Positions 6,688-26,853 of a DNA stretch of 64,000 nucleotides are shown piece by piece. Source of the stretch: Halobacteriovorax sp. HLS (GTDB taxonomy: Bacteria > Bdellovibrionota > Bacteriovoracia > Bacteriovoracales > Bacteriovoracaceae). Numbering within the stretch: position 1 is the stretch's first letter; every line of letters starts with the position of its first letter. Where the stretch lies: the NCBI RefSeq assembly GCF_004006665.1, contig NZ_QOCL01000004.1:62001-126000 (forward strand), in the 5' to 3' direction. A program made the translations under genes and the position numbers. Under the pieces are notes generated by a model. The model was given only the letters and a program-made list of their open reading frames with translations, was not told the DNA's origin and did not search any database.

Positions 6688-7740
6688 CTAGGCCGGAAGA
6701 AGTTTCCATCCACTGGCCAGGTCAGTTACATGGACCTTGGGTTCGGAAGATAAGATCTCGGAAAACTCGAGAACTTTTTTAAAGTTGTTGCCGGCAAACA
6801 TTTTTAACTCATTTTCTCTGGTGAGCATAGTGGATTTAAGTGTTTTTAACTTAGACTCTTGAGGATGCCAATTATCAAGAAACGGTTTTAAGCACTTATT
6901 TACTGCAAGATAATTGTCACCATGCATAAAGTCTTTAGCTTCGGTAAATAAACTCATGGCCTCTCCAACTTTATGGTGTTCAGCTGATGAGACTAAGAAC
7001 CAGTTTGAGAAGTCTTCTTTACCGAGTTCTTTTTGAAAATCTATTGCCGAAGTAAAGTGTTCACGACAGCGATATAATAGACTGACTGCGTCTATGAAGA
7101 TGTCAACAAAGTCACCACCTGTGACTTTCTCTAGATAGCTAAGAAGTTTTTTTACTCCAGATGAAACGAGTTTTCCTAAGAATTTCTTTGGCGCCGATTC
7201 TCCTGAAACTTTCTTTCCAAGAAACTTAAAAATTTCTACAAAACTCTTATCAAAAAAGTGTTCAATTTTTCTTGTTGCGCCTAAGAAGTCTAAGAAGTGC
7301 TTACCTGGAGGAGTATCTAAAACAACTGTATCGTAATTTCCTGTTGCTAAGTGAAACTGAACTTCAAGAACTGCCATTATTTCATTCATTCCACCATAAG
7401 GTTTGGTCAGAACTTTGAGAATTCTATTGTCTAATTCTTTTTCGAGTCCTTCTGCCTTAGCGATACGCTCTAAAGTATGTGAAGGAGATAGTAGTAAAGC
7501 ATCAAAAGTATTCTCAACATTATCTTCACTGAAGTTTTGAGTATCTATTTTCTTTAGAATTCCTGAGTCTGAATCTTGAAGCCCGAGAACTTGCTTGAGT
7601 CTCTTTGCTGGATCTATGGTAATTAGAAGAACTTTGAGTCCTTTTTCTGAGAGAGCTACAGCTCTAGAGGTCGCTAATGTTGTTTTTCCAACACCACCAG
7701 TTCCGCAAAAAATCTCAACTCTCTTATTGGGAATGCTCAT
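6688..7740 (-). CDS. ArsA/Get3-family ATPase (longer paralogue)
   Basis: 350 residues. The deviant Walker A loop GTGGVGKTT is at about 12-20, switch II reads VLDTPPGKHFLDFL, and LITIDPAKRL follows strand two, all typical of the ArsA/Get3 branch of the SIMIBI ATPases. Only one ATPase domain is present, so it resembles bacterial Get3-like proteins more than tandem ArsA arsenite pumps. No arsB or arsR is nearby. It starts inside the end of the shorter paralogue (4-base overlap), so the two are likely made together. The substrate is unknown; membrane-protein targeting and envelope roles are both only inferences. Confidence 0.8.
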   Translation of the reverse strand: MSIPNKRVEIFCGTGGVGKTTLATSRAVALSEKGLKVLLITIDPAKRLKQVLGLQDSDSGILKKIDTQNFSEDNVENTFDALLLSPSHTLERIAKAEGLEKELDNRILKVLTKPYGGMNEIMAVLEVQFHLATGNYDTVVLDTPPGKHFLDFLGATRKIEHFFDKSFVEIFKFLGKKVSGESAPKKFLGKLVSSGVKKLLSYLEKVTGGDFVDIFIDAVSLLYRCREHFTSAIDFQKELGKEDFSNWFLVSSAEHHKVGEAMSLFTEAKDFMHGDNYLAVNKCLKPFLDNWHPQESKLKTLKSTMLTRENELKMFAGNNFKKVLEFSEILSSEPKVHVTDLASGWKLLPA

Positions 7741-8528
7741 ATTAGCTCCTCTAAGTGTGAGTTTGAAAGCTCGGTCATAACAGCTTTAAAGTTTGGAGCG
7801 AGACAATGAGGAATCTTTTCTAAAATTTTCCCATTAAATTCATTAATAACTGATAGTTCTAAATCTTTCTTTGTTTGCAAAAAACTCGGCAATTCTTCGT
7901 CAGTGTTTAAGATAGGCGAGAGACAATCATTTGCAACTAGATGAGTATTTTCAAAATCTAATTTTTTCAAATGGTCAATTACTTCTATAGACTCATTAAG
8001 GGCCATTTTGGTTGGAAGTGAGATAATTAAATTCTTTAAAATATCTTTTCCATAAATAAAGTCATGCATTCTCTTGATGTCTTCAACGAGAAGACCTGAG
8101 CCAAAAATTTCTTTAAAGTTATGTGAGGACTCAAACATTGTCAAAGCGTGACCGCTTGAAGGTGAGTCTAATACAATTGTTAGGTTAGGATCAGACTCCA
8201 GTAGATCTATAATGTGGCCGAGTAAGATCATATGGCCTAGGCCTGGAATCATATTGAATAACGATTTAAAAAATGGAGTTTTCATTATCCAATTTGCAAC
8301 AAGTTCTGAGTTTAGCTTCTTTCCCATGTAAGTTTTTGCAGACTCAATGAGATCAAAGTGAACAAATGGAATATCTAATTGAGTGCACAAGTCAGATTGG
8401 TTCTCCTGGTCAAAGCTATTGTATAGAACCTTGACCCCTCTTTGTGATAGTTTCTTTGCAAGTGAGAGCGCGACTGAAGTTTTACCGACACCGCCTTTAC
8501 CAGTTACTATGTATAGACGGTGTGCCAT
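7737..8528 (-). CDS. ArsA/Get3-family ATPase (shorter paralogue)
   Basis: 263 residues. Walker A is TGKGGVGKTS at about 9-18, and VLDSPSSGHALTMFES stands where the switch II DTPPxGHxL lies. It is about 90 residues shorter than its neighbour. VLYNSFDQENQSDL replaces the usual DPA motif after strand two, so it is the more diverged member. A heterodimer with the neighbouring ATPase is plausible because genes for heteromeric SIMIBI ATPases often overlap like this. It begins one base after the stop of an outer-membrane barrel gene on the same strand. Confidence 0.75.
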   Translation of the reverse strand: MAHRLYIVTGKGGVGKTSVALSLAKKLSQRGVKVLYNSFDQENQSDLCTQLDIPFVHFDLIESAKTYMGKKLNSELVANWIMKTPFFKSLFNMIPGLGHMILLGHIIDLLESDPNLTIVLDSPSSGHALTMFESSHNFKEIFGSGLLVEDIKRMHDFIYGKDILKNLIISLPTKMALNESIEVIDHLKKLDFENTHLVANDCLSPILNTDEELPSFLQTKKDLELSVINEFNGKILEKIPHCLAPNFKAVMTELSNSHLEELI

Positions 8529-9747: not shown

Positions 9748-10130
9748 AAAGGTTAGGTTAAGCTTAAGAACTTCGTATTTCCAGTTAGTTACCTCTAGTA
9801 ACTAGGGAATGTCGCGATTCACATAATGCTTTGCTTCGGTTAACGAACAATGAAATAGCAAGCTTGTTAAAAGTGTGTCAATAGAAAATCGGGACAAAAT
9901 TCTTACAGTGCATTATTTTTATGACTCTTGACGTATATTCAGTATCTTATAGGTTTTTAATCTTGAGGTGGCTTAAGTTTTTCTTAAGGTTGGAGTGACT
10001 GCGTCATAGAGTTTGCTGGAAAATTGTTCCGAAAATTACAACCTAAACAAAGCTTTAAGTATTTTCTTCTACTTTACGACAAGTACAGAGGGCTTTGAGA
10101 AAATTTAGTCCAAAACCCAAAAGGATAAAC
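9748..10130. other. Intergenic region, no gene seen
   Basis: Together with the promoter to its left this is the longest gene-free stretch in the window. I see no open frame with coding character. A TTGACG at 9928-9933 and a small palindrome TGACTGCGTCA at 9996-10006 could serve the TPR gene on the right, but no -10 sits at a good distance. A small RNA cannot be excluded. Confidence 0.4.
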
Positions 10131-11954
10131 ATGTTCAATAGAATTTTTTTGATTGTAACTCTTGTGGCATTAACATCATGTGCAAGTGTATCTAATTCAA
10201 AGAATGAAATATCTAAAGCTACAGACAGATCAAATGAGCATCGTGACGATGGTCAATCATTGGAAAAGTATCTGGCCAAAGCAATGGTCAATATTGATTC
10301 AATGTCCCAAGTAAAGAAGTCTCACCTTGCTGACGAGTTCTATATTAAAGGCTCTGATGCTGCTCTAAGAGGAGACAGTTTAAGTGCAGCACTATTTTTT
10401 GAAAAAGTACTGCAAATAAACGGTAAGGATGACTATGTCTCAAAGCGCTATGCCGTCGAGCTTATTAGATTAAATAAGTTGAGTGAAGCAAAAGTGATTT
10501 TACAAGACCTTTATAAAAGTGAAACAAGTGAAAATGTTGGATTGATTTTGGCCGGTGTACATACTGCTTTAAAAGAAAAGCGTGCGGCGCAAATCGTATA
10601 CAATTCATTGCTAGAGAATTATCCAAAGTCTGAAGAAGCGTGTGTTTTTTTAGCCAAGTCATACTCTTTAGAATCAAAGTTTAAGAAGGCCTATAGATTA
10701 TTATCAAAATGTGAGAAAGAAAATAAGGGCAAAGCTATTTACTCTTTTTATAGAGGAAAGATTGATCTTGCACGTGGACAAAGAAAGTCTGCTTTAAAGT
10801 ATTTTAAAAAATCCCTGGCAATAGATGAAACATATCAACAATCGGCAATAGCTCTAGGTTCTATCTACGAAGAAGATCAGAAATATGATAAAGCTCTATT
10901 AGTATATGAAAAGTTTTTGAAAAAGACTCCACATTCTTATTCAATTCTTAAAAGCGTAATTCAAATATACTTCTCTCAAGGAAAGTACGACAAAGTTATT
11001 CCACATGCAGAAGCTCTTTCAAATATTGATCCTAGCGATTTAAACTTAAAAGTTCGTTTAGGAATTCTTTATGCAGATTCGAAAAAATATGAAGATGCAA
11101 AAGGTGTCTTTAAAGAGATTTTAACTGTAATTCCTCAGTCAGATAAAGTTCTTTATTACTTAGGTATGCTATATAAAGAAACTGATGAGTATGACAGTGC
11201 TGTAGGTTATTTTTCGAAAGTTCCAGAAGAGAGTTCTCTATTTCATGAGAGTAATTTGGAAATAGCAAGACTACTTCTTGTAGAGGCCGAAGAAGATGAA
11301 ACAGGCGAAAGCGCAAAGAAATTTGTAAGCTTTGTTGAGCAGGCATCATCGAAAGGTGTTGATTTAAAAATAGCTCTCAAAGTTATGCTTGCAGGTCACT
11401 ATGAAACCATCGGTAGAGTCCCGGCCGCAGTAGATGAAATGGAAGAAATTCAAAATGAAAAAGAGTTTTCAGAGTCACACGAATACTACTTAGCAGCATT
11501 GCATGAAAAGAATGGCGACTATAATAAGGCAAAAGATGTAATTGAAAAACTACTTAGTAAAAACCCTGAAAACCCTCATGCTCTTAACTTCTTAGGTTAT
11601 ACTCTTTTAGAAAAAGGTGACGACCTTGATAGGGCTTATATTCTTATAAAGAAAGCTGTGAGTTTAAAACCTAAAGATGGATATATTCGAGATAGTTTAG
11701 GCTGGTACTATTATAAAACGGGCAATTATGAAAAGGCCTTAGTTGAAATAAAAAAGGCGTGGTCTCTAGTTAAAACAGATGTTATTGTAACTAAGCACTT
11801 GGCCATGGTTTATAAGAAGTTAAAAAAATATGAACTGGCCAAAAAGTTTTATGTGGAGGCACTACGCAATTGCAAAGTCGATTCAGAAAGACAAGAAGTT
11901 ATGAGAGACTTGAGTGGATTAGAGTCATTGCGACTACCTGCCTCTTCTCAGTAG
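10131..11954 (+). CDS. TPR-repeat lipoprotein
   Basis: 607 residues from the ATG at 10131, chosen because it opens a lipoprotein signal (MFNRIFLIVTLVALTSC) with AAGGA six bases upstream; the frame is open further left from a TTG. After the acylated Cys the protein is built of tetratricopeptide repeats, for example AIALGSIYEEDQKYDKALLV and NYEKALVEIKKAW. It should be anchored in the outer or inner membrane and scaffold other proteins. A long TPR protein followed directly by lolB is a known order in gamma- and betaproteobacteria, and the overlapping downstream gene fits that. Confidence 0.85.
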   Translation: MFNRIFLIVTLVALTSCASVSNSKNEISKATDRSNEHRDDGQSLEKYLAKAMVNIDSMSQVKKSHLADEFYIKGSDAALRGDSLSAALFFEKVLQINGKDDYVSKRYAVELIRLNKLSEAKVILQDLYKSETSENVGLILAGVHTALKEKRAAQIVYNSLLENYPKSEEACVFLAKSYSLESKFKKAYRLLSKCEKENKGKAIYSFYRGKIDLARGQRKSALKYFKKSLAIDETYQQSAIALGSIYEEDQKYDKALLVYEKFLKKTPHSYSILKSVIQIYFSQGKYDKVIPHAEALSNIDPSDLNLKVRLGILYADSKKYEDAKGVFKEILTVIPQSDKVLYYLGMLYKETDEYDSAVGYFSKVPEESSLFHESNLEIARLLLVEAEEDETGESAKKFVSFVEQASSKGVDLKIALKVMLAGHYETIGRVPAAVDEMEEIQNEKEFSESHEYYLAALHEKNGDYNKAKDVIEKLLSKNPENPHALNFLGYTLLEKGDDLDRAYILIKKAVSLKPKDGYIRDSLGWYYYKTGNYEKALVEIKKAWSLVKTDVIVTKHLAMVYKKLKKYELAKKFYVEALRNCKVDSERQEVMRDLSGLESLRLPASSQ

Positions 11955-12574
11955 TTCTTACTTCTTGTTCAACAATACCTAAAGTTAAAGAAGATGATCA
12001 ACTTGAAAAGATTGTAAAGAATATCTGCGTGAACTCTGCTGGACGAGGTAGAGTGAAGATCTTTAATCAAACAACTCTATTTTCCTTTGAAACTGTAAAT
12101 ACACCTGAAAAATTTTGGAAAATGGCAGTAGATATACCTATCCATGGTGAAGAACTGCTTTCAATTGGTTGGGAAAATGCCGATAAGTCGCAAGTTCAGC
12201 TTAAGGGAGGATTTGCGAGAAGATTAATTAATAGTTCAAAAGCTGATGTACGCTCGAAGAAGTATAGTCATTTAATTAAGGGTTTCATGAAAGGCTGGGC
12301 GCAAGTTCTTCTGGCAAATGATTTAATTAGAAAGAATAAACCAAGCTTTGAATGTACGGACGGAAAGTGTTTATTTGGTAGTGGTAAATGGCTTACCGGT
12401 ACTTCTCCAGGTCATTACTTTTTAGACTATGAAATTAGAGAAGGAGAATTACTTCGCTTTGACTTCTCAAACTTTAAAGAAGACTCGCCGCGCAGGGTGT
12501 CGATTACACCAGTGGGTCAAACTCTTGAAACTACACCATTTCAGATAGATTTATTTGTAAATACCTGTGAATAA
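11870..12574 (+). CDS. lolB: Outer-membrane lipoprotein, LolB candidate
   Basis: 234 residues from a TTG at 11870. It is preceded by a strong GGAGG (11855-11859) ten bases upstream, inside the TPR gene, and the overlap is 85 bases. A lipoprotein signal ends at VVLTSCST, though the N-terminal extension before it is longer than usual. The mature part has LolB-like features: GRGRVKIFNQTTLFSFETV as the first strands and DYEIREGELLRFDFSNF near the end. Sequence identity to known LolB is low by eye; the call leans on the TPR-lolB order. LolB receives lipoproteins from LolA at the outer membrane. Confidence 0.55.
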   Translation: MQSRFRKTRSYERLEWIRVIATTCLFSVVLTSCSTIPKVKEDDQLEKIVKNICVNSAGRGRVKIFNQTTLFSFETVNTPEKFWKMAVDIPIHGEELLSIGWENADKSQVQLKGGFARRLINSSKADVRSKKYSHLIKGFMKGWAQVLLANDLIRKNKPSFECTDGKCLFGSGKWLTGTSPGHYFLDYEIREGELLRFDFSNFKEDSPRRVSITPVGQTLETTPFQIDLFVNTCE

Positions 12575-12688
12575 CGCTGTGCTCGTGACTCTTTTCCTTA
12601 ATATCCTAGGAATTCATTAAATAATTTTGTATATATCATAAGTTAAATTGCTAGTTTTTGGTAAACCACTAAACAGAGGGAATTGACT

Positions 12689-14452
12689 ATGATGAAGATA
12701 ACTTCACTACTTGCGGCTTTGATCCTAACGACGGGATTTGTTAGCTGTACTAAAAAGAACAAAGATACAGGTAAAACGATTAACATCGCTGTTTCTGCAC
12801 AAATTAAAGGGCTAGATCCAATTTATGCTAACGACCGTTACTCAAGTAATGAAGTTGGGCGTGTTTATGAAGGTCTACTTGAATACCATTACCTAAAAAG
12901 ACCATATACTTTGGTTCCAAACTTAGCTGAGTCTATGCCAGTAGTTTCTGAAGATGGGCTAACTTATACTTTTAAAATTAAACAAGGTGTAATGTTTCAT
13001 CACGATGCTGCTTTCCCTGATGGAAAAGGCAGAGAGCTAGTTGCAGAAGATTTTGTTTATTCAATTAAGAGATTAGCTGATCCAAAACTTCAAGGTCTTG
13101 GATGGTGGTTACTTGACGGAAAGATCAAAGGATTAAACGAGTGGAGAACAAAGTATGCTGATCTTCCAAGTGTTGATTATACGGAAGTTGTTGAAGGACT
13201 TAAGGCCCTTGATAAGTATACTTTAGAGTTTAAGCTAACTAAACCATTTCCACAGTTTCTATATTCTTTAGCAATGCCTTTCACATTTGCTGTAGCAAAA
13301 GAAGTTGTTGCAAAGTACGGTGAGGAATTCTTAAACCATCCTGTAGGAACGGGACCATTTATTCTTCCTCAATTTACTCAGACAAAGAAAATTACATATA
13401 CAAAGAACCCTAATTTTAGAAAGAAATTATATCCTTCTGAAGCGAGTGAAGAGTTTAAGGCCGCAGGATTTTTAGCAGATGCTGGAAAAGAACTTCCACT
13501 TGCTGATAAAGTAGTTGTAAATGTAATCATTGAATCTCAACCTAGATGGCTTAACTTCCTAAAAGGTAAAGTTGATTACATTGCAATCCCAAAAGATAAT
13601 TTTGATTCGGCAGTAACACCAGATAGAAATCTTTCTGACGACTACAAGAATAAAGGAATTGAGCTTTTAATTAATCCTTCTTTAGATGTAACGTACACTG
13701 CGTTTAATCATGACTTAAAACTTTTTAAGAATACTGATCTAAGAAGAGCAATCTCTATTGCTTATGATGTAGTTAAATCTAACGAGCTCTTCTACAATAA
13801 TACTGCTCTTCCTGCGCAATCAGTAGTTCCTCCAGGTATTGCAGGAAATATTAAAGGTTATGTATCTCCTTATAGAGGACCAAATATTGAAGAAGCTAAG
13901 AAGCTTCTTGCTAAAGCTGGTTACCCTGAAGGTAAAGGACTTCCAGAGATAACTTATGACTGTCCTTCAAATACAGTATCTAGACAAATTGGAGAGTACT
14001 TCAAAAAGCAAATGGCTCAAATTGGAGTTAATATCAAAGTTGTAACTAACCCTTGGCCAGAGCTTCAAAAGAAGATCACTAAGAGACAAGTTATGCTATA
14101 CGGTATTGCTTGGGGTGCTGATTATCCAGATGCTGAGAACTTCTTACAGCTTCTTTATGGACCAAATAAAGCTCCTGGAGCAAATGGTTCGGGGTATGAT
14201 AATCCAGAATTCAATAAGCTTTATAAAACAGCTTCAATTATGCAAGATTCTCCAGAGAGAACTGCTCTTTATGAAAAAATGAATAGAATTGCAGCTGAAG
14301 AGTCTCCTTGGATTTATGGAGTACATAGACAGAACTTTACACTTAGACATTCTTATTTGAAGAATTACATGTCTACTGACTTTGAAACAGGTCAAGAGCA
14401 ATATCTAAATGTTGATGTTGCAGCAAAAGCTAAAGCTTTAGAAAAATTATAA
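12689..14452 (+). CDS. Peptide ABC transporter substrate-binding lipoprotein (OppA/DppA family)
   Basis: 588 residues from ATG 12689, eight bases after GAGGG. The signal ends with the lipobox GFVSC, so it is a lipid-anchored periplasmic protein. Family-5 binding-protein features run in order: the region around ISAQIKGLDPIYANDRYS, the signature YTFKIKQGVMFHHDAAFPDG, LEFKLTKPFPQFLYSLAMP, NHPVGTGPFILPQF and DLRRAISIAYDV. It captures oligopeptides or similar ligands for the two permeases encoded downstream. A strong stem-loop separates it from the permeases, allowing more binding protein than permease to be made. Confidence 0.92.
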   Translation: MMKITSLLAALILTTGFVSCTKKNKDTGKTINIAVSAQIKGLDPIYANDRYSSNEVGRVYEGLLEYHYLKRPYTLVPNLAESMPVVSEDGLTYTFKIKQGVMFHHDAAFPDGKGRELVAEDFVYSIKRLADPKLQGLGWWLLDGKIKGLNEWRTKYADLPSVDYTEVVEGLKALDKYTLEFKLTKPFPQFLYSLAMPFTFAVAKEVVAKYGEEFLNHPVGTGPFILPQFTQTKKITYTKNPNFRKKLYPSEASEEFKAAGFLADAGKELPLADKVVVNVIIESQPRWLNFLKGKVDYIAIPKDNFDSAVTPDRNLSDDYKNKGIELLINPSLDVTYTAFNHDLKLFKNTDLRRAISIAYDVVKSNELFYNNTALPAQSVVPPGIAGNIKGYVSPYRGPNIEEAKKLLAKAGYPEGKGLPEITYDCPSNTVSRQIGEYFKKQMAQIGVNIKVVTNPWPELQKKITKRQVMLYGIAWGADYPDAENFLQLLYGPNKAPGANGSGYDNPEFNKLYKTASIMQDSPERTALYEKMNRIAAEESPWIYGVHRQNFTLRHSYLKNYMSTDFETGQEQYLNVDVAAKAKALEKL

Positions 14453-14459
14453 AATAATG

Positions 14460-14483
14460 GCCCTCCTTAATGGAGGGCTTTTT
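14460..14483 (+). terminator. Intercistronic terminator after the binding-protein gene
   Basis: GCCCTCC (14460-14466), loop TTAAT, GGAGGGC (14472-14478), then five T. It lies eight bases after the binding-protein stop and 20 before the permease start, so it likely lets only part of transcription read through. Confidence 0.85.
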
Positions 14484-14503
14484 AACTTTTAGGTGGTTCA
14501 CTC

Positions 14504-15445
14504 GTGAATTTGTGGCAATATATTTTAAGAAGACTGTTTTACATTATCCCGACTATTCTTGGGGTGGCTTTCATTATCTTCGTTATTTTTAACCTTGTAG
14601 CTCCGGACCCAGCTTTAATTATGCTAGGAAAACACGCCAGCGTTCAGCAGATACAAGAATTGAGAGAAGAGTTAGGTTTAAATAAACCAATGTGGGCCCA
14701 ATATTTGGATATTGTAAAATCGGCTTTTACTTTTGATTTCGGTAGGTCCTGGACAACTAAGCAAGAAATTATATCGATGATTAAGCAAGGTGCAATACCT
14801 TCGATGACGTTATCTGTTCCTGCATTTGTATTATCTACAATTATATCAATTTCTATTTCTCTTGTGGTTTCTTTCTATAGAGGAAAATGGATTGATAAGT
14901 CAGTTGTATTTGGCTGTGTACTTTTAATGAGTGTAACTTCTTTAGCGTACATCCTCTTTGGTCAATGGCTATTTGCTTACAAGCTTGGATGGTTTGAGAT
15001 CTCAGGTTATGAGTCAGGCTTTCCTGATTTTCTTCCGTATATCGTTTTACCTGTAATTATTTGGATTATCTTATCGATAGGTCCAGATGTTAGATTTTAC
15101 CGAACGGTCATGCTAGATGAAATTTATCAAGACTATGTTCGTACAGCTAAGGCCAAGGGCCTCTCTGAAAGAGTTGTTCTTTTTAAGCATGTATTAAAGA
15201 ATGCTATGATTCCAATTATTACTTTTGTTGTTATTCAAATACCATTTTTAATTTTAGGAGCACTCTTATTAGAAAGCTTTTTTAGTATTCCAGGTTTAGG
15301 TGGAATTACCCTAAATGGAGTTTATAACTCTGACTTTCCTGTAATTAAGGCAATGACAATATTAACTGCGATGGCCTATATCATTTTTAGTGTGATTACG
15401 GATGTCCTATACACTCTAGTAGACCCTAGAGTACGTCTTAAGTAG
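14504..15445 (+). CDS. Peptide ABC transporter permease, OppB/DppB type
   Basis: 313 residues, starting at GTG 14504 with AGGTGG upstream. The start MNLWQYILRRLFYIIPTILG is typical of DppB/OppB, as is DPALIMLGKHASVQQIQELR. There are about six membrane segments and the EAA loop YVRTAKAKGLSERVVLFKHV that contacts the ATPase. It ends in the usual YTLVDPRVRLK. It forms the channel with the next gene product. Confidence 0.92.
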   Translation: MNLWQYILRRLFYIIPTILGVAFIIFVIFNLVAPDPALIMLGKHASVQQIQELREELGLNKPMWAQYLDIVKSAFTFDFGRSWTTKQEIISMIKQGAIPSMTLSVPAFVLSTIISISISLVVSFYRGKWIDKSVVFGCVLLMSVTSLAYILFGQWLFAYKLGWFEISGYESGFPDFLPYIVLPVIIWIILSIGPDVRFYRTVMLDEIYQDYVRTAKAKGLSERVVLFKHVLKNAMIPIITFVVIQIPFLILGALLLESFFSIPGLGGITLNGVYNSDFPVIKAMTILTAMAYIIFSVITDVLYTLVDPRVRLK

Positions 15446-15455
15446 GAGATAGGAT

Positions 15456-16367
15456 ATGGCACAATCAAATGTACAACCAGTTGAGACAGTAATAATGACA
15501 AGTAATACAAAAGATAGAAAATCTAAATCACTATGGGATCACGCAGTTGATAATATGACTCGTGATAAATTAGCAATGACTTCGTTAATAGTTGTTGCTA
15601 TCTATGCAGTTATAGCAACACTTTCTGCCATTGGTGTAATTGCCTCTGATTGGGCAGTTGAAGTTGGTCCATCTTACGCTGCTCCAAGTTCCGAGTTTTT
15701 ATTTGGTACTGATATTTTTGGTAGAAGCGTTTTTACAAAAATGATTAAAGGTACTGAAGTGGCAATGTCTGTTGGACTTGTTGCTGCGATAATATCTGTT
15801 GTCATCGGAGTTACACTTGGTAGTATTGCAGGTTATTTCGGTGGAAAAATTGATGAGCTAATTGTTTGGTTCTATACTTGCTTTCAGTCTATTCCAACTA
15901 TCATGTTACTAGTTGCACTTTCATTTGTTATGGGGAGAGGACTTGTTTCAATGTATGTCGCTTTAGGATTAACTTCTTGGGTTAACTTATGTCGCTTAAT
16001 ACGTGGTGAAGTTATGAGACATAAGAATAGAGATTATGTTCAAGCGGCCTCTGCACTTGGTGGTGGACATGCTAGAAAATTAATTAAGCATATTTTTCCA
16101 AATGTTTCTCACTTAGTAATAATCAATTTCTCTTTAATGTTTCAAACAGCAATTAAAACGGAAGTTATCCTCTCTTATTTAGGTCTTGGAGTACAAGGTA
16201 GACCAAGTTGGGGAACTATGATTGACGATGCTAAGCTTGAGCTTGCACGTGGAGTTTGGTGGCAGTTAGGAGCTGCAACTTTGGCCATGATGATTGTGGT
16301 ACTTTCTCTAAATATCCTCGGTGATGCTCTTAGAGACGCACTTGATCCAAAGCTGAAGGGAAAATAA
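15456..16367 (+). CDS. Peptide ABC transporter permease, OppC/DppC type
   Basis: 303 residues, ten bases after the OppB-like gene with GGAGATAGGAT upstream. It has an extended cytoplasmic N-terminus, then LFGTDIFGRSVFTKMI (the family's G-T-D-x-G-R-D-x-F motif, with Ser for the Asp), several membrane helices, and the EAA motif YVQAASALGGGHARKLIKHIFPN. It ends in DALRDALDPKLKGK. No oppD or oppF ATPase gene follows; transcription appears to end at the terminator 30 bases on, so the ATPase must be encoded elsewhere or shared. Confidence 0.92.
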   Translation: MAQSNVQPVETVIMTSNTKDRKSKSLWDHAVDNMTRDKLAMTSLIVVAIYAVIATLSAIGVIASDWAVEVGPSYAAPSSEFLFGTDIFGRSVFTKMIKGTEVAMSVGLVAAIISVVIGVTLGSIAGYFGGKIDELIVWFYTCFQSIPTIMLLVALSFVMGRGLVSMYVALGLTSWVNLCRLIRGEVMRHKNRDYVQAASALGGGHARKLIKHIFPNVSHLVIINFSLMFQTAIKTEVILSYLGLGVQGRPSWGTMIDDAKLELARGVWWQLGAATLAMMIVVLSLNILGDALRDALDPKLKGK

Positions 16368-16394: not shown

Positions 16395-16418
16395 AGCCTC
16401 CTTTTTGGGGGCTTTTTT
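16395..16418 (+). terminator. Rho-independent terminator after the transporter genes
   Basis: AGCCTCC (16395-16401), loop of five T, GGGGGCT (16407-16413), followed by a T run through 16418. One G-T pair in the stem. Confidence 0.85.
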
Positions 16419-16480: not shown

Positions 16481-17479
16481 ATGGGCCATTTTGCTCATAA
16501 AGGACGTAATATTTTGACAGTTGATTCAACAACTCTTACTGAAATTAGTTTTTCTGAACTAAAAGATATTAAATTATCTTATGGTGACCTGTATTGGAAA
16601 AAGAAAGATGGTAAGTGTATCCGACTTTTAAATGTGGGAGAAATTGTTGATATAAACAAGCTAGCAAAATTTGAGAAAGTAACAGCATTTTTGTATTTAG
16701 ATTTAAAGTGTAATAGGTCATATATTGAACAGGGGGTGAAGATCCTAACTTCAATATTAAATAGCACTGACGAGAAAGAGAGGCTTGAATTAAGAAGAAG
16801 TTTTTTATCTCATTTATATCCTCTGTATTGGAGTGGTGAGAATGAGGGGGTCCTGCTTGATCTCGTTATGATCTTTCAAAATACTTTTTATTCTTTAGAT
16901 GAATACTTTGGGAGAGAAATGGATGCCAAGGCGTTGTCATTTTACCAAAGATCATGTCTTGTTTCGACACTTATTACATTGAGTGCTCTTGTTTGTGGCT
17001 ATACACACGGTGCTTTTCTCAAAGACTTGTATAATACTTGTTACTTTTTTGATTACTCGTATGCAATAACTGATCATAGTTCACTAGAGCTGGAGAAGAT
17101 TGAAAATGCTAGAGTTAATCATCTTCCTTTTGGTCACGAAATAGAGATGGTTAGAAAATCAATAGAATCTTTCAATTACAAATATTCGCACACAAATCTT
17201 TCTAACTTAATTAGGTTTCATCATGAATTTTTAAATGGAGAGGGACTGGTTATAGGCTCTAACCAAGAAGAAATAGGGGAGTTAGAGAAGCTTGTGATTT
17301 TTATTGAGGCTTCTGTTGAATTTAATAAAACAGACTATCTAACCAGAGATGCGAGAGGGTTCTTAAAAAAGTTATTTTGTGAACTAGAGTATGACGAATG
17401 TGTTATCGAAGAGTCTCTGAAAGAATTATTAGGTAGGGACTTTGAGTCTATATCAACTAAGATGGAGAATGCCGCTTAA
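16481..17479 (+). CDS. Unknown cytoplasmic protein with a decayed HD-GYP-like C-terminal half
   Basis: 332 residues, no signal or membrane segment. I do not recognise the N-terminal half. The C-terminal half resembles an HD-GYP domain in order and spacing: FLKDLYNTCYFFDYSYAI stands where the HD helix lies, then RFHHEFLNGEGLVIGSN in place of HHExxDGxGYP, and LEKLVIFIEASVEFNKTDY in place of the helix with D-x-F-D-A-L. The HD pair and GYP are lost, so it may bind a partner or a nucleotide without cleaving it. Its stop touches the start of the 902-residue gene, so the two are probably one unit. Confidence 0.6.
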   Translation: MGHFAHKGRNILTVDSTTLTEISFSELKDIKLSYGDLYWKKKDGKCIRLLNVGEIVDINKLAKFEKVTAFLYLDLKCNRSYIEQGVKILTSILNSTDEKERLELRRSFLSHLYPLYWSGENEGVLLDLVMIFQNTFYSLDEYFGREMDAKALSFYQRSCLVSTLITLSALVCGYTHGAFLKDLYNTCYFFDYSYAITDHSSLELEKIENARVNHLPFGHEIEMVRKSIESFNYKYSHTNLSNLIRFHHEFLNGEGLVIGSNQEEIGELEKLVIFIEASVEFNKTDYLTRDARGFLKKLFCELEYDECVIEESLKELLGRDFESISTKMENAA

Positions 17480-20188
17480 ATGACTGATGTATTAAAAAAA
17501 TACATTCTTAATTTATGTTCATCTGATCTTTCAGATCAAATGAATAGTATTCTTGAGCAACAAGAAGTAGAAATAGTTTCTAAGTTTGATGAGACTCAAA
17601 AATACGATTTTGTACTGATTGATAGTGATGATACGCAATTACCATGTACTTGTGCTGTGATCTTTATTGGTGAGCCAAAAAATAGAAGTCAGTTTTTTAA
17701 AAATAATGGGAAAGCGATAATATCTAAAGAAATGACTTCTGATACAATAGAGTCAATAATTTTTGATCGTCTCTTAGGGAATAGTTCAAGTCTTAGTTTA
17801 GAAAAAGCCTTTGATTCTGAAATTGATAGTTGTGGAAGTTTTAAGGTCACTGATCATCTTAATGGAGGTTATTATAGTGACTTGGTTGCTGCTAAGGCCG
17901 TGGTGAATGATTTTGACTTTCTTAGAGTTAGAAATAGTTTTTTTAACTTAGTAAATTTCTTTTCTGTGATCATTGACTCTAAGAAAGGACTATTTCCTGT
18001 AGATGTTGATTTTGGAATTTCGGACGAAAAATTTATTATCCAATCCCATTTCAATGTGATGGACTTTGGAGGGGAGTATTTATGGAGTTCTTTAAGCCCA
18101 AAAGGTGATAAGTTTCTTCATGATGCTGTTGAGTATGTAGATACTTTGGATTGCTATATTTTAGAGAAAACAGGAAGGCTTGTTGTTACTCTTGTGATTT
18201 CTAAAGATCCAAGTTCAATGAAGAATATCTTCTTGCATAATGTTAAATCTTTTAAACTAATGAATGTTGAAGACCTTGTTGGTGGTACAACAACGACTTC
18301 TGTAGAAGATCTTCCGGCTGATATTTCGTTAGCAGAGAAAACTCAACATATTTCAAAAGTAAAAAATATTCTAGAAGATGATCAAATGTCTGATGGGCAC
18401 TTGGTCAACGTTACGAGAGTGGTAAAATTTCTCAAAAAAACAAGTTTCACACTTGATGATTTGTCGCTAGATAATTTCTCTACTTTAGTTAAGGGATATC
18501 CTAACGAGGCAGTTCTCGACTCGCTTACGATCAATGATAAAAAACTCATAATAGATTCTTTAAAAGATGAAGAGAAGTTCTCTAACTTAGAGTCTTCACT
18601 TGAAGAAGTTGAAAAAATTGCAGGACTTGATGAGTTTCTTGATTCTCTTGTTACAAAAATTGATGGGCTAAGCTTAGAGCAAGCAAATGAAATTGTTACA
18701 CTAACTGAAAGCCAAGATGCTGATGAGGAGATGACGAGAGTCGGTGGCTGGAAAGAAGAAGAGGACAATCATAAAGAAGTGATTAAAGGATCTCCTGAGG
18801 ATTTAGGAGAGGTTTCAACTATGGTTAAGGGTTCTAAAGAGGACTTAACTGAAGATAGAACTATTATTTCTGGATCACCTGAAAAGTCCAATAATGATTC
18901 CGTGACTATTAAGGGGACACCCGAAGATACGAATAAAGGAAAATTTACCCTTAAAAAGTTTGAGGGAGTAAATGAATGGAGCAGTAAGAAAGACGATATT
19001 ATTTCTGGAATTAGGAAAAGGGCCGAAGAATTAAAGAATAAAGGTGCCTCTCTTTCAGATTTGGGGACTGAGTTAACGACCATCGTTAGTGAATCTTTAG
19101 ATATTGATATAAAGGATTCTAGCTCAATCTCTAAAGGACTTTTTGAAAATGCTTCGGAAAAATTTGTTACTTCTGTGAAGCACGAAAGTAAGAGTGAGCA
19201 GGATAACTCTGAAGAGGTCGCTAAGTTACGGGCCGATTTAATAAAAAGAGATACTCAACTAGGGCGTATGATGAAGCTCATAGAGGGGATGAAAAAGGAA
19301 CTTGTAAGCAAGAAGCAAGTGATATCCTCTCCAACCGACGATACATTCAATGTTGAACTTAATAAGCTAAAAGCTGAAGTTGATAAACGCGACAAGCAAA
19401 TTGATCTACTGAAGAAGAACTTAGAAAATACTCACGGTGTTGTTGATAAAATAAATTCCATTACTGATCAGAATAATGAATTACTTGATACTGTTTCAGT
19501 TGAGCCAGATATTGTTAAAAATCTAGAAGATGAAGTAAAAAGGCTAACTTCGCAATTATCTTTGGCACAAGGAAGAATCGAAAGTATTTCTGAAAAAGCA
19601 GACTCGGAAAAAGAGATGGCCGACAGCAGATCTAATAATGAATCGAAGCTTTTTAGAGAAAAATTTATGAAGAGCCAAGAGATCATTAATAAATTTCAAG
19701 ATGAGAATAAGTCCTTAGAGAAAGAGCTCTTTGAATTGAAGAGAGTAAAAGAAGAACTTGAAAATAAAGCAAATCTCCTTGCGAGTAATGATCATAGTGA
19801 AGAGTTAAAGGAAAAAGATCAAGCGTTAGCAGAACTATCCAAAGTATCTAAACAGAATGAAGATCGATATCGAGCAGCAGGGCTTAGAATTAAGCAATTA
19901 GAGCAAAAGAATAAATTCCTTACGGCCCAAGTTTCAGAAGCAACTAAAAAGGCAAAGAAGGGCTCTGGAGCAGGAGCAAAGGGTGCCGTAGATCCTAAGA
20001 CTGCTCACAAAATTAAGCAACTTGAGAGACTGACTGAAAAGCTTAAGGGAAGTAGTGATAAGTTTGAAGAAGAGCTTACGGCAAAGAAGAAAGAGGTTCA
20101 TCAGTCTAAATTAGAAAATAATACACTTAAGCTTAAAATCGATGAGTTAGAGAGAAAGATATCAAAACTTGATAAGCAAGCGGCCTAA
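17480..20188 (+). CDS. 902-residue cytoplasmic protein: receiver-like head, 14-residue repeats, long coiled coil
   Basis: No family recognised. Residues 1-110 show strand-helix alternation reminiscent of a receiver domain (KYDFVLIDSDD). Residues 110-410 are mixed alpha/beta. Residues 419-488 are five tandem copies of a 14-residue unit, and residues 590-902 are heptad-rich coiled coil (for example LEQKNKFLTAQVSEATKKAK) interrupted by a Gly/Ala/Lys segment near 835. No signal or membrane helix. The layout, a signalling-like head, repeated Thr motifs and a rod, suits a polar or motility scaffold; that is inference. The start ATG follows the previous stop directly. Confidence 0.7.
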   Translation: MTDVLKKYILNLCSSDLSDQMNSILEQQEVEIVSKFDETQKYDFVLIDSDDTQLPCTCAVIFIGEPKNRSQFFKNNGKAIISKEMTSDTIESIIFDRLLGNSSSLSLEKAFDSEIDSCGSFKVTDHLNGGYYSDLVAAKAVVNDFDFLRVRNSFFNLVNFFSVIIDSKKGLFPVDVDFGISDEKFIIQSHFNVMDFGGEYLWSSLSPKGDKFLHDAVEYVDTLDCYILEKTGRLVVTLVISKDPSSMKNIFLHNVKSFKLMNVEDLVGGTTTTSVEDLPADISLAEKTQHISKVKNILEDDQMSDGHLVNVTRVVKFLKKTSFTLDDLSLDNFSTLVKGYPNEAVLDSLTINDKKLIIDSLKDEEKFSNLESSLEEVEKIAGLDEFLDSLVTKIDGLSLEQANEIVTLTESQDADEEMTRVGGWKEEEDNHKEVIKGSPEDLGEVSTMVKGSKEDLTEDRTIISGSPEKSNNDSVTIKGTPEDTNKGKFTLKKFEGVNEWSSKKDDIISGIRKRAEELKNKGASLSDLGTELTTIVSESLDIDIKDSSSISKGLFENASEKFVTSVKHESKSEQDNSEEVAKLRADLIKRDTQLGRMMKLIEGMKKELVSKKQVISSPTDDTFNVELNKLKAEVDKRDKQIDLLKKNLENTHGVVDKINSITDQNNELLDTVSVEPDIVKNLEDEVKRLTSQLSLAQGRIESISEKADSEKEMADSRSNNESKLFREKFMKSQEIINKFQDENKSLEKELFELKRVKEELENKANLLASNDHSEELKEKDQALAELSKVSKQNEDRYRAAGLRIKQLEQKNKFLTAQVSEATKKAKKGSGAGAKGAVDPKTAHKIKQLERLTEKLKGSSDKFEEELTAKKKEVHQSKLENNTLKLKIDELERKISKLDKQAA
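18734..18943 (+). repeat. Five tandem 14-codon repeats in the 902-residue protein
   Basis: Conserved glycines fall at residues 423, 437, 451, 465 and 479, exactly 14 apart. The unit reads T-[IMR]-[IV]-x-G-[ST]-[PK]-E-[DK], then five to six acidic or polar residues; examples are TMVKGSKEDLTED and TIISGSPEKSNND. The nucleotide sequence has diverged between copies, so the repeat is held at the protein level. Confidence 0.85.
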
Positions 20189-20288: not shown

Positions 20289-20372
20289 GCCCAGGTGGTG
20301 AAATTGGTATACACGCTAGACTTAGGATCTAGTGCCTTTGGCGTGGAGGTTCAAGTCCTCTTCTGGGCACCA
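20289..20372 (+). tRNA. tRNA-Leu (anticodon UAG)
   Basis: 84-base type II tRNA. The acceptor stem GCCCAGG pairs with TCTGGGC (one G-U), the anticodon arm is CTAGA-CTTAGGA-TCTAG giving anticodon TAG (UAG), a short variable arm is present, the T arm is GAGGTTCAAGTCCTC, and CCA is encoded (20370-20372). It reads CUA/CUG-type leucine codons. Single gene, with its own promoter and terminator. Confidence 0.97.
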
Positions 20373-20380
20373 TTTAAAAA

Positions 20381-20408
20381 AGCTCTTCTTCGGAAGAGCT
20401 TTTTTTTT
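20381..20408 (+). terminator. Terminator of tRNA-Leu
   Basis: AGCTCTTC, a TTCG tetraloop closed by C-G, GAAGAGCT, then eight T. A textbook intrinsic terminator eight bases past CCA. Confidence 0.95.
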
Positions 20409-20477: not shown

Positions 20478-21194
20478 ATGAAAATATTTAAAGAAGACGG
20501 TTTCTCAATAGTTCAAGTCATGATCGCAGCAGGCATGATGGGTATAGTTTCACTTGGTATGATGAAAATGATGGAAAATCAGAGGAAGTCTACTAAGTCG
20601 ATGAAAACTTCTATGGAAGTAGACTCATTTTATAATGAAGCAAAAACCTATTTCTCTAAAGATGGTTATTGTTCAAAGAACTTTGAAGGTGAAGTACTCA
20701 AAAGTGGTGATAAGTTCGAAATTATGGAACTTATTAAACCTAACGGTAAGACTCTGTACAAAGTTGGAGAAATTTATGGGAATAGAACTTTTAAGATCTC
20801 CAAAATCGATATTATTGACTTTGAAAAAGAAACAGATACTAGCGGAATAATGAAGCTTCAGTTCTCATTAACTAAAATGGGAGACTCGTATGGAGCAAAA
20901 TCCTATAAGAGAATTTTAAAATTAGACACATCGCTAGATGAAAATAAGAAAGTTGTTAATTGCGCAACATTTGGCAGTTTAATTTCAGGAATTGCCGGTG
21001 GAAATTTAGAAGGTACGGAAAAAGTTGAGAATGTAGAGCAAGCAATTAAGGATATTCAAGCAGGAAAGTCTACGGAAGCTACCAAGAAAGTTGAAAAAAC
21101 AATTGAGAGTAACCAACAGTTAAAAAATCTTCAAAACACAATTGACTCACTGAGAAAAGCTAATGAACTCATGGAGCAGAATCTCAACGAGTAA
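20478..21194 (+). CDS. Prepilin-like protein with type IV pilin-type N-terminus
   Basis: 238 residues. The N-terminus KEDGFSIVQVMIAAGMMGIV has the class III signal layout: short basic leader, Gly before the cleavage site, Phe at +1, then a hydrophobic helix. Glu at +5 of the usual GFTLIE is Gln here. The remainder carries CSKNF and VVNCATF cysteines that could pair, then a polar helical C-terminus. It probably is a minor pilin or pseudopilin processed by a PilD-like peptidase. No other pilus gene is adjacent. Confidence 0.7.
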   Translation: MKIFKEDGFSIVQVMIAAGMMGIVSLGMMKMMENQRKSTKSMKTSMEVDSFYNEAKTYFSKDGYCSKNFEGEVLKSGDKFEIMELIKPNGKTLYKVGEIYGNRTFKISKIDIIDFEKETDTSGIMKLQFSLTKMGDSYGAKSYKRILKLDTSLDENKKVVNCATFGSLISGIAGGNLEGTEKVENVEQAIKDIQAGKSTEATKKVEKTIESNQQLKNLQNTIDSLRKANELMEQNLNE

Positions 21195-23202: not shown

Positions 23203-24402
23203 ATGATAATGATAGAGAAGTTCTGCATACTACCATTTGTTCAATTAGAAATTCAGCCAAATGGAAATATATTTGTATGTTGTCATTCGAATACTCCTGA
23301 GATCCTAGGAAATCTTCATGAAGAAAACTTAGAAGAAATTTGGAATGGGCCTAAAGTTAAGGCCTTTCAAGATAAATTCTTATCAGGTAAGTATGATCAA
23401 ATTTCACACTGTAAGGATTGCTTCTATTATGAACAACATAATATGGAATCTTGGAGAACCAAAGAGAATAAAAACTGGGCTAAATACTTAGAGGAAATAA
23501 ATAGTGGCAAGGAAGTAAAATTAAAATTTCCTAAAAGCTTATCCATTAGAATATCCAATTTATGCAATTTTTCATGTCGCTCTTGTAAACCTTCTACTAG
23601 TACAGCTTGGTTTGCAGATGCAAAATTTTTAAACCCAAAAGGTAATTATAAAAAGCTAAATTGTACTCCCGCAGATAATCCTCTTTCAAAACAATTGGCG
23701 CCATATTGGTCGGAAATTGAACACTTATATTTTGCTGGAGGAGAACCATTATTAGAGAAAGATCACTATTTAATTATTGATGAGGTGATTAAATATAATA
23801 AATCAATCATGATAAATTATGATACGAATTTTAGTATTTTAGAATTTGGAAAATGGAATGTTTTAGATCAGTGGAATCAGTTAGAGAGTGTTGTTGTGTC
23901 TGGAAGCATTGATGGATTTGGACCTGTGGGTGAGTACATAAGAAAAGGACTTGATTGGCCTCTCTATATAAAGAATTGGAATCGAATAAAGAATGAATGT
24001 CCTAATGTACGTTTAAAATCTAATTTTACTTTATCGATATATAATATGTTTCATGTCTTAGACTTTATTGAGGAAATGCAAAGAATAGAGCTTTTTAATG
24101 GTCTTAATGAGCATGACTTCGAGATATCTCTGGTTGAAGAACCAAGCTGGATGTCACTACAGGCGCTTCCTTTAGAAGTTAAAAAAGAAGTGGAGTTTCG
24201 CTATAAAAATTTTATGAAAAATAATAGCTTTGGAAGAATCAATCAAGATCTTCAAAGTGCGCTGAATTATATGATGGCAGAAGATAAATCTCATCAATTA
24301 GGAGCTCTAAAAGGTTTTACAAAGAAATTAGACTTGCTAAGGTCAGAAGATTTTAATGAGCTATTTCGTGAAGAATCTCAAATATTATTTGGAAGTATAT
24401 GA
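23203..24402 (+). CDS. Radical SAM protein 1 with N-terminal auxiliary cysteine module
   Basis: 399 residues; the in-frame ATG at 23209 has the better spacing to AAGAG and could be the true start. Residues 8-73 carry C8, CC26-27 and CxxC (70-73), the cysteine pattern of a SPASM/twitch auxiliary Fe-S module, here placed before the radical SAM domain. The radical SAM motif is C121-x3-C125-x2-C128 (LCNFSCRSC), followed by FAGGEPLLE (GGE motif). It should bind S-adenosylmethionine and a 4Fe-4S cluster; the substrate is unknown. First of three overlapping paralogues; the next start overlaps its stop by four bases. Confidence 0.88.
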   Translation: MIMIEKFCILPFVQLEIQPNGNIFVCCHSNTPEILGNLHEENLEEIWNGPKVKAFQDKFLSGKYDQISHCKDCFYYEQHNMESWRTKENKNWAKYLEEINSGKEVKLKFPKSLSIRISNLCNFSCRSCKPSTSTAWFADAKFLNPKGNYKKLNCTPADNPLSKQLAPYWSEIEHLYFAGGEPLLEKDHYLIIDEVIKYNKSIMINYDTNFSILEFGKWNVLDQWNQLESVVVSGSIDGFGPVGEYIRKGLDWPLYIKNWNRIKNECPNVRLKSNFTLSIYNMFHVLDFIEEMQRIELFNGLNEHDFEISLVEEPSWMSLQALPLEVKKEVEFRYKNFMKNNSFGRINQDLQSALNYMMAEDKSHQLGALKGFTKKLDLLRSEDFNELFREESQILFGSI

Positions 24403-25628
24403 CAAAGATATGTCCTCTACCCTGGCTGCATTTTAGTTGTAACGCTGATAGTTCATTGCGATTGTGTTGTAATGCAACAGGGGATAGAGATGTCATAGAC
24501 AATAATGGCGATCCAGTTCTTCTCACAAGTAATCTCTCTTGGAAGAAAGTTTCAAATTACAATTTTTACAAGGACATTAGATCTAAGATGTTAAAGGGAG
24601 TCGTCCCTGAGCAGTGTAAGAATTGTTATAAACTTGATAATCATGGCGGTAAGTCTCCATTATCAATTTATGAAAAGCAATTTAAAGAGAGTATGTCTTC
24701 TCTATTAGACAGAACTCTCGAAAGTGGTGAGATTCTTTCTCCAAGTGATACTCCAGAGTATTGTGATTTAACTTATACCAATAGTTGCAATCTAAAGTGT
24801 CGAATGTGTACTCCTGAGTTATCAGCACCACTTCATAAAGAATGGAAGAGTTTGAATATAGATTTTAATGAAGATTTTTATGAAAATGCTAAAAACATAT
24901 GGGACTTGAAATTACTAAAGTCTCTAGACTTTATTGAAAATACTTCTGTGCTTTTTATTCAAGGTGGAGAGCCTCTAATTAATAAAGATATATTTAACTA
25001 CTTACAAGAGTTAATTGAGAAGAATAAGGCCTCTAAGATATACTTAAAGATCACAACTAATTTAACGATATTAAGTAATGATTGGATAAAAGTTCTATGT
25101 CAATTTAAAGGAGTTGCCTTTCATGTTTCTATTGAAGGAACTTCTGAATTAAATAATTATATCCGCTTTCCTTCTAAGCTAAATCAAATTGAAGAAAATA
25201 TTGAAAAATTAATAAAACTGAAAAGAGTATATCCATTTTTTGTAAATATTCATACGGTTTTTCAGTTTATGAATATTCATAATATAGAATCATTTCTAAA
25301 GTACTTACAGAAGTGGAAAGGTCAATTGCCCATTATTCCTACGATGGGATATCTCAATGTGCCAGAATTCTATAATCCAAAGCATTTAGAGGAAGCTAAG
25401 AAAAATATGATCTTATCATCTTTAAGAAACTTTCTTAATGATAATAAAATTCTATATACTCAAGAAAGTGGAGAAGTTACGAAAGAGAACTTTGAAAACC
25501 TATTGGGCTGCATTGAACTTGCAAGTGAGAAGGGATGTCGTGAAATGGAAAAAAAGGCCCTTTACTATATTGAAGAACTTGATAAATTACGAGATCAATC
25601 ATTTGTGAAGGTTTCTAATGGAAGGTAA
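24399..25628 (+). CDS. Radical SAM protein 2 with N-terminal auxiliary cysteine module
   Basis: 409 residues, start ATG inside the previous stop (ATGA). It has the same order as its neighbours: C5, CC23-24, CxxC (73-76), then C130-x3-C134-x2-C137 (SCNLKCRMC) and FIQGGEPLIN. Between the two cysteine regions is an acidic helical segment (KGVVPEQC to FKESM). It is closer to protein 3 than to protein 1 by the shared tails SPLSIYEKQFK / SPRRIFLDHYEKEF and IRFPSKL / LRFPMKW. The function is not recognised beyond the fold; sister enzymes modify peptides, sugars or cofactors. Confidence 0.88.
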   Translation: MTKICPLPWLHFSCNADSSLRLCCNATGDRDVIDNNGDPVLLTSNLSWKKVSNYNFYKDIRSKMLKGVVPEQCKNCYKLDNHGGKSPLSIYEKQFKESMSSLLDRTLESGEILSPSDTPEYCDLTYTNSCNLKCRMCTPELSAPLHKEWKSLNIDFNEDFYENAKNIWDLKLLKSLDFIENTSVLFIQGGEPLINKDIFNYLQELIEKNKASKIYLKITTNLTILSNDWIKVLCQFKGVAFHVSIEGTSELNNYIRFPSKLNQIEENIEKLIKLKRVYPFFVNIHTVFQFMNIHNIESFLKYLQKWKGQLPIIPTMGYLNVPEFYNPKHLEEAKKNMILSSLRNFLNDNKILYTQESGEVTKENFENLLGCIELASEKGCREMEKKALYYIEELDKLRDQSFVKVSNGR

Positions 25629-26853
25629 ATTCTTATGCCCTTTTCCGTGGATGCAAATTAGTACTGAGCCAGAAGGTTCAGTAAGGGCCTGTTGCTATGG
25701 AGACTCTGGGAAAACTCTAGGGCTCGATGTTAATTCGACATTTAAAATAAGTGACGCACAATTATTAGAAAAAAAAATAAATCACCCTGAGCTTGTGAAG
25801 CTAAGGAAATCGATGTTAAGTGGAGAGATTCCAAATTTTTGTAATGGGTGTAAAAGAAGAGAGGATGTTGGGGAGAATTCTCCTAGAAGAATTTTTTTGG
25901 ATCATTATGAAAAGGAGTTTGAGATCCTCCTCGGCAAGACGAATTTGAACAGTGGGGAATTAGCAGTAGACGATATCTCTTTACTTGAATTAACACTAGG
26001 GAATACCTGTAATTTGAAGTGTAGGTCATGTTCTCCATATTTTAGTTCAACTCTTGAAAAAGAGTTTGAGCAGTTGGGGATAGATTTTTCAAAAGAAAAT
26101 GTTCAGGAGATTCAGGCCTTTTGGAAGCAAGGTAAGTTAATCGATTCTCTTATTCTACTTTCTAGAGAAGTTCGTGAGTTAAAGTTTTTAGGTGGAGAAC
26201 CATTAGTTACTCCAATACATAATCAACTTCTCTCTATACTTATTGAAAAGAATCTGTCTTCTAATATGTCTCTAACTTATAATACAAATTTAACCCTTAT
26301 AAGCGATGATATTCTTTCTAAGTGGTCAAAGTTTAAGAGTATTAAGCTTGATATCTCTATTGACGGTGTAGGAGAGCTAAATGAATATCTACGCTTTCCT
26401 ATGAAGTGGGAGAAGTTTGAAAAGAATTTAGAAAAAATTTTCAATGAAAAAGATGATTTAAATATTGAAGTGAGCTTCAATACAGTTTTCCAAGCTTACA
26501 ATATACCTTTTATTATAGATCTTTTGGAATACTTGAAGCCTCTTTCAAAAAAGTGTCCAATTGTTCCGTACTTTATATATCTCGATTATCCTTACTACTT
26601 GAAGGGAGATGTCTTGAAAGTAAGTGTTTTGGAAGAGATAAAACAGAGATTAAGTCTGTATTATTCAAACAATGAAGAATTTTATAAAAATACCTTGTAC
26701 GGAGAAAAGAATCTCTCTAATTTTTCACTTCTTTTTTCACTATTAGACTTATCGATTTTAGAAAATAGAACCGAAAACTATTTTGACTTTATAATGTTTA
26801 CCAAGAAATTGGATAAATTAAGAAAACAAAATTATTTTCGATTCTTAAAGTGA
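25618..26853 (+). CDS. Radical SAM protein 3 with N-terminal auxiliary cysteine module
   Basis: 411 residues, starting 11 bases inside the previous gene. Cysteines: C7, CC25-26, CxxC (75-78), then C131-x3-C135-x2-C138 (TCNLKCRSC) and FLGGEPLVT. The last 50 residues are Leu/Asn-rich helix ending KKLDKLRKQNYF, which parallels KKLDLLRSEDF and EELDKLRDQSF in proteins 1 and 2. The shared C-terminal helix suggests a common partner or dimer interface. The stop abuts the convergent secreted-protein gene with no spacer. Confidence 0.88.
   Translation: MEGKFLCPFPWMQISTEPEGSVRACCYGDSGKTLGLDVNSTFKISDAQLLEKKINHPELVKLRKSMLSGEIPNFCNGCKRREDVGENSPRRIFLDHYEKEFEILLGKTNLNSGELAVDDISLLELTLGNTCNLKCRSCSPYFSSTLEKEFEQLGIDFSKENVQEIQAFWKQGKLIDSLILLSREVRELKFLGGEPLVTPIHNQLLSILIEKNLSSNMSLTYNTNLTLISDDILSKWSKFKSIKLDISIDGVGELNEYLRFPMKWEKFEKNLEKIFNEKDDLNIEVSFNTVFQAYNIPFIIDLLEYLKPLSKKCPIVPYFIYLDYPYYLKGDVLKVSVLEEIKQRLSLYYSNNEEFYKNTLYGEKNLSNFSLLFSLLDLSILENRTENYFDFIMFTKKLDKLRKQNYFRFLK

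Follow-up and report, generated by a model that had tools for sequence, protein, structure and literature searches.

We analysed a 64,000-nucleotide stretch of DNA from Halobacteriovorax sp. HLS (RefSeq assembly GCF_004006665.1, contig NZ_QOCL01000004.1, positions 62,001 to 126,000 of the forward strand), hereafter the window, and found that two abutting genes in it, here called A and B, form a real and old pair. Protein A is, at the level of a predicted fold, a degenerate HD-GYP protein, and protein B is a multi-domain coiled-coil protein with a predicted pseudo-receiver head and a predicted Bergerat domain that lacks its ATP-binding motifs. These are domains of signalling enzymes without the corresponding chemistry; thus, the pair probably serves in sensing and scaffolding. 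We consider it fairly probable that A and B constitute a non-enzymatic signal-integration module, in which A is a sensor or docking pseudo-enzyme and B is an oligomeric scaffold. No description of the pair was found in the literature searched, a search that reached few subscription journals.

A conserved tandem gene pair

Gene A (16481–17479, plus strand) encodes 332 amino acids, and gene B (17480–20188, plus strand) encodes 902 amino acids. The source genome comprises 3.84 Mb in 16 contigs. A preliminary description, made from the letters alone, presented the genes as contiguous, with a stop codon followed by ATG. This agrees with the open reading frames, which abut exactly, the ATG of B beginning at the base directly after the TAA of A (gccgct TAA ATG act). 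At almost every locus read, the start of B falls -8 to +17 nucleotides from the end of A, and the B orthologues are from 735 to more than 1,700 amino acids long.

Using profiles, we counted orthologues of both genes in 129 genomes of the order Bacteriovoracales. Single-sequence searches detected A in 77 genomes and B, represented by its first 500 residues, in 96; profile searches detected orthologues of A in 102 genomes and of B in 99. Both genes are present in 98 of the 102 A-bearing genomes, and they are adjacent on the same strand in 94 of these 98; in the other four, A and B are located on separate contigs, with A at the contig end in all three cases that were checked. A search of genome contigs with a 12-sequence profile returned seven named loci, the closest named records being Bacteriovoracaceae and Halobacteriovorax metagenome-assembled genomes. 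B was not found in approximately 240 genomes of the phylum outside the family of the window; it is thus lineage-restricted, though common inside the family. It should be noted that GGDEF domains are present in 128 of the 129 genomes; therefore, co-occurrence of the pair with GGDEF is uninformative. The proposal that the genes encode a signalling pair is upheld to the extent that A and B are probably functionally linked, as indicated by the conserved tandem and by the window scan, in which no terminator was scored between them. Separate regulation of the two genes had been named as a result that would speak against a pair; the genes are not separated, and the pair is not refuted on this count.

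Protein A has a predicted HD-GYP fold

The A protein of the window, taken alone, has no match in Pfam or NCBIfam. However, the profile of the A family matches Bd1817 of Bdellovibrio bacteriovorus (PDB 3tm8; E 5.5e-4), an unconventional inactive HD-GYP protein, and also the HD-GYP cyclic GMP-AMP phosphodiesterase V-cGAP3; the Pfam family HD_5 is matched by 16 of 28 A members. An HD-GYP protein encoded elsewhere in the same genome (contig C9) is a weak relative. We built models of A and B on eight-sequence alignments, and the model of A has a mean predicted local distance difference test score (pLDDT) of 71. When this model was searched with Foldseek, the top five matches were Bd1817 chains (E 3e-3 to 8e-3, probability 0.96–0.98), and in a second structural comparison HD-GYP and HD chains led the matches, with Z-scores of 5–6.6 that are modest taken alone. 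The HD-GYP-like layout that the preliminary description gave to the first protein thus stands, and the outcome that it named as counter-evidence, a structure prediction with no HD fold, is not what was found.

Bd1817 is the best match of A in both sequence and fold, and the two proteins have a two-domain layout in common. In A, an N-terminal alpha/beta domain (16538–16705, plus strand; residues ~20–75), delimited from the secondary structure of the model and from weak profile similarity to the Bd1817 N-domain, precedes the degenerate HD-GYP domain (16898–17398, plus strand; residues ~140–306), which was delimited from an alignment of 42 homologues. Bd1817 has no GYP tyrosine, and it retains an HD dyad that ligates metal, together with a di-iron centre (PMC4159591); A, in contrast, has lost the histidine of the dyad. 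The possibility that A is the orthologue of Bd1817 was ruled out: in the seven genomes read, the neighbourhood of Bd1817 is unrelated and contains no B. A canonical HD-GYP protein (HDIGK, HHERYDGRGYP) is encoded on the minus strand of the window at 248–997; like B, it ends in Ala-Ala.

Selective decay of the active site

The 42 homologues of A were aligned to a canonical HD-GYP protein of the same genome, and sites are given in the numbering of the HD-GYP protein PmGH. In the column of H221, the histidine of the HD dyad, no histidine is found among the residues listed, and 40 of the 42 sequences have a hydrophobic residue or Asn. Arg replaces the equivalent of H189 in 34 of 42 homologues, and Leu replaces that of K225 in 30. 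Other sites are retained, namely the equivalents of D222 (37/42), H250 (35/42), H276 (34/42), H277 (36/42) and E278 (41/42), and the two glycines of the HHExxxGxG loop are present in 35–37 homologues. At the position of the GYP tyrosine, 25 of the 42 homologues have Phe and the window protein has Leu, whereas the HHE motif and both glycines are mostly present. The window protein follows this pattern: it keeps D191, H219, H247-H248-E249, G253 and G255, and it has lost the HD histidine (F190), a metal-binding histidine (R157), the lysine (Y194) and the GYP tyrosine (L256).

Judged from sequence, the decay of the site is selective, not total. The preliminary description considered the first protein to be without catalytic residues, which is correct for the equivalents of H221, H189 and K225, and incorrect for the other five sites, each of which is kept in 34 to 41 of the 42 homologues. 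PmGH binds three irons through eight residues, of which D222 links the G to the M site and E185 the M to the H site, and replacement of H189, H221 or K225 by Ala abolishes or strongly cuts its activity (PMC4159591). The full set of metal ligands together with the catalytic lysine, as found in an active cyclic di-GMP (c-di-GMP) phosphodiesterase, is not present in A, and because the Ala mutants of PmGH have little or no activity, A probably does not hydrolyse c-di-GMP. By the ligand geometry of PmGH, the kept set of residues is compatible with one residual metal or ligand site in A, putatively on the G side.

Architecture of protein B

The preliminary description gave the second protein a receiver-like head, Thr-containing repeats and a coiled coil of 300 residues. 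All three parts are present (residues 7–99, 419–491 and 591–896, respectively); however, an RsbW-like Bergerat domain at residues 116–243 had been missed. The model of residues 1–600 (pLDDT 64, predicted template modelling score 0.45) consists of a receiver-like beta/alpha head (7–99), a second alpha/beta domain (116–257), a helical part (306–410), a disordered part (407–496) and long helices.

The pseudo-receiver head (17489–17785, plus strand; residues ~4–102) matches the receiver of PorX (Z 5.0–5.3), and the receiver of LvrC could also be aligned to it; we hold the assignment of a receiver fold, which is based on the model, with moderate confidence. The phosphorylation chemistry of receivers is not conserved in the head: among 28 sequences, an Asp at the end of beta3 is found in nine and a Lys at beta5 in four, and the acidic pair is not conserved.

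The second domain (17825–18250, plus strand; residues ~116–257) resembles the Bergerat domains of the anti-sigma factors RsbW and SpoIIAB. Residues 116–243 match RsbW in Foldseek (probability 1.00, E 2.3e-3) and SpoIIAB with Z 10.8 and a root-mean-square deviation (rmsd) of 2.4 over 123 residues. While the fold is shared with these proteins, B has ~11% identity to them and no detectable sequence homology. In the same 28 sequences, neither a DxGxG (G1) box nor a conserved N-box Glu was found; nevertheless, G130, D134 and P173 are invariant, and K122 and Y132 are nearly so. These new invariants indicate that selection maintains the domain for some role other than the lost chemistry. Next follows a helical region (18395–18709, plus strand; residues ~306–410), where pLDDT is mostly 65–80.

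The order of the two N-terminal domains is that of the Leptospira response regulator LvrC (PDB 9qih), which combines a receiver with an RsbW-type Bergerat domain (PMC13269768). The receiver of LvrC is canonical, with the acceptor D53, and the protein was crystallised with ADP; B, in contrast, has neither receiver chemistry nor a G1 box, and it has in addition the repeats and the coiled coil. A pseudo-receiver head combined with a C-terminal coiled coil is also found in FrzS of Myxococcus xanthus (PMC12632262, PMC1974792). Given that B has a Bergerat domain, the closest known N-terminal architecture is that of LvrC, and not only the receiver-plus-coil layout of the FrzS/AglZ kind. To our knowledge, FrzS has neither a Bergerat domain nor an HD-GYP partner gene.

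The Thr/Ser-Gly-Glu/Asp repeats (18734–18952, plus strand; residues 419–491) are of the type T-x-I-K-G-S-x-E-D and are predicted to be disordered (pLDDT <50 for residues 407–496). Receiver-ankyrin proteins of the same genome and of its relatives carry these repeats as well, with as many as 19 motif matches. In B itself, the number of copies varies among orthologues (e.g., L049 and L052), from many in some relatives to almost none in others. Receiver-ankyrin proteins in which this repeat type, as T-x-[IV]-K-G-S/D-x-[EQ]-D, is arrayed in a few to nearly twenty copies are encoded at L073:3476-4675 (contig C3 of the same genome), L075:2554-4458 and L076:2607-4538. A dense cluster around the receiver-ankyrin gene on contig C3 (L073:2512-7973) encodes receiver proteins, a small HPt-like protein and, at 6756-7973, a protein that combines receiver and HD domains.

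The coiled coil (19250–20167, plus strand; residues ~591–896, or ~300 residues) has a heptad moment of z 5.7 compared to shuffled sequences, and an SMC-like match. The matches of B to Pfam Wtap and NCBIfam SMC were attributed to coiled-coil composition and rejected as homology. B ends in Ala-Ala (20180–20185, plus strand), as do 15 of 20 B proteins versus two of the 136 proteins in a background set (Fisher p 6.5e-15, kinship ignored); many A proteins end in a small residue, too. The genome's own tmRNA (ssrA) tag ends in ...MPMAA, and this resemblance suggests that the Ala-Ala tail of B may be a degradation signal.

Gene neighbourhood and transcription

Of the 21 neighbourhoods compared, most share the gene order tetratricopeptide repeat (TPR) protein, lipoprotein-like protein, OppA, OppB, OppC, (OppD/F), A, B. 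In the window, the TPR and lipoprotein-like genes (10095–12574, plus strand) lie upstream of an oligopeptide ABC transporter (binding protein and two permeases; 12683–16367, plus strand), which lies upstream of A. Apart from these genes and one family of opposite-strand genes, no recurrent neighbours were found in the 21 neighbourhoods; in some genomes, an opposite-strand gene stands between the transporter and A.

A hairpin resembling an intrinsic terminator is located between oppC and A (16395–16413, plus strand), and both L066 and L069 have a similar hairpin in the corresponding position; of the four genomes scanned, only L070 has none there on the plus strand. Another such hairpin lies downstream of B (20376–20405, plus strand), right after a tRNA gene (20289–20369). 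With hairpins before A and after B, the pair looks like a transcript of its own beside the transporter operon, and the alternative that A and B belong to one operon with Opp is weakened by the recurrence of a terminator in this position in three of the four genomes.

Proposed mechanism and alternative explanations

In the mechanism that we propose, A would be a pseudo-enzyme derived from an HD-GYP protein that may hold one metal or ligand and switch by binding. The head of B, with no G1 ATP box, would switch by docking partners, and A, to judge from the conserved tandem, is likely to be the first of these. The repeats may provide a flexible linker for docking, a linker type that the receiver-ankyrin proteins of the same genomes would share; the coiled coil would multimerise and set the reach of the complex, and the amount of B may be set by AAA+ proteolysis via the C-terminal Ala-Ala. 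A more elaborate version, which we regard as possible but doubtful, is a lineage-specific hub built wholly of domains without chemistry (pseudo-HD-GYP, pseudo-receiver and pseudo-Bergerat), where a cyclic-nucleotide-reading A gates the B scaffold, the repeats dock those partners that receiver-ankyrin proteins also dock and the level is set by the ssrA-like Ala-Ala.

Several observations weigh against the scaffold model. Confidence in both structural models is middling (pLDDT 71 and 64), and searches with the sequence of B against PDB and Pfam returned nothing credible for its receiver and Bergerat domains, so that these assignments rest on predicted folds. LvrC aligns across both N-terminal domains of B with Z 8.8 and an rmsd of 19.8; such a deviation indicates that the placement of the domains differs, and their relative placement is thus unsupported. 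Conserved synteny by itself is no proof that A binds B, and the metal ligands kept in A leave room for some other activity. If that activity were enzymatic, the Asp, three His and Glu would form a mononuclear metal site acting on some phosphoester, with B targeting A. The strong conservation of the kept residues (the equivalents of E278, D222 and H277 in 41, 37 and 36 of 42 homologues) would be expected in this case; however, the HD histidine, the second histidine and the lysine are gone in nearly all A members, and changes at these same positions disable or strongly impair PmGH (PMC4159591), so we consider an altered chemistry to be highly improbable.

A polarity scaffold that brings the complex to the cell pole, steering pili or flagella, would share the broad layout of FrzS (PMC1974792, PMC12632262), and the four genomes without a FliG_C match are also without the pair. 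However, many flagellated relatives likewise lack the pair, making its co-occurrence with flagella weak support for a link to motility; moreover, B has an additional Bergerat domain, and the conserved neighbours form a transporter cluster, not motility genes. A polar role is therefore unlikely. A role of the pair in regulating or sensing the uptake of oligopeptides (e.g., prey-derived peptides) by the adjoining Opp transporter is quite unlikely: the conserved gene order suggests such a role, but it may only reflect old operon ancestry, two relatives have, like the window, a terminator between the Opp genes and A, and an opposite-strand gene intervenes in some genomes. Finally, B could be an anti-sigma factor of the LvrC/RsbW kind, the N-terminal half of which sequesters a sigma factor, while A co-regulates and the coil only dimerises. 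RsbW, SpoIIAB and LvrC are indeed the best fold matches of B; nevertheless, the absence of the G1 box and of receiver chemistry, a size of 735 to more than 1,700 amino acids with a long coil, unlike compact anti-sigma factors, and the limited set of recurrent neighbours (TPR, lipoprotein-like, transporter and one opposite-strand family) make this very unlikely.

If the scaffold model is correct, most members of a predator-related bacterial family possess a module that is conserved yet undescribed, and the pair is a clean case of three signalling-enzyme folds that cooperate without chemistry. Since the Bergerat-like domain of B is unmatched by Pfam, its sequence family appears to be missing from the libraries. 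The kept residues of A and the invariant residues of B would provide direct mutational handles on signalling by inactive HD-GYP and Bergerat domains, a question also raised by Bd1817.

Other genes in the window

Between B and trpS, the window encodes a protein of 238 amino acids (20478–21194) with a type IV prepilin-like N-terminus (GFSIVQVMIAAGMMGIVSLGMMKMMENQ), and a similar gene is found at the same place in L066. Further downstream (23203–26853) are three tandem paralogous genes encoding 399, 409 and 411 amino acids, with CNxxCRxC-type motifs and a radical-SAM/SPASM-like appearance.

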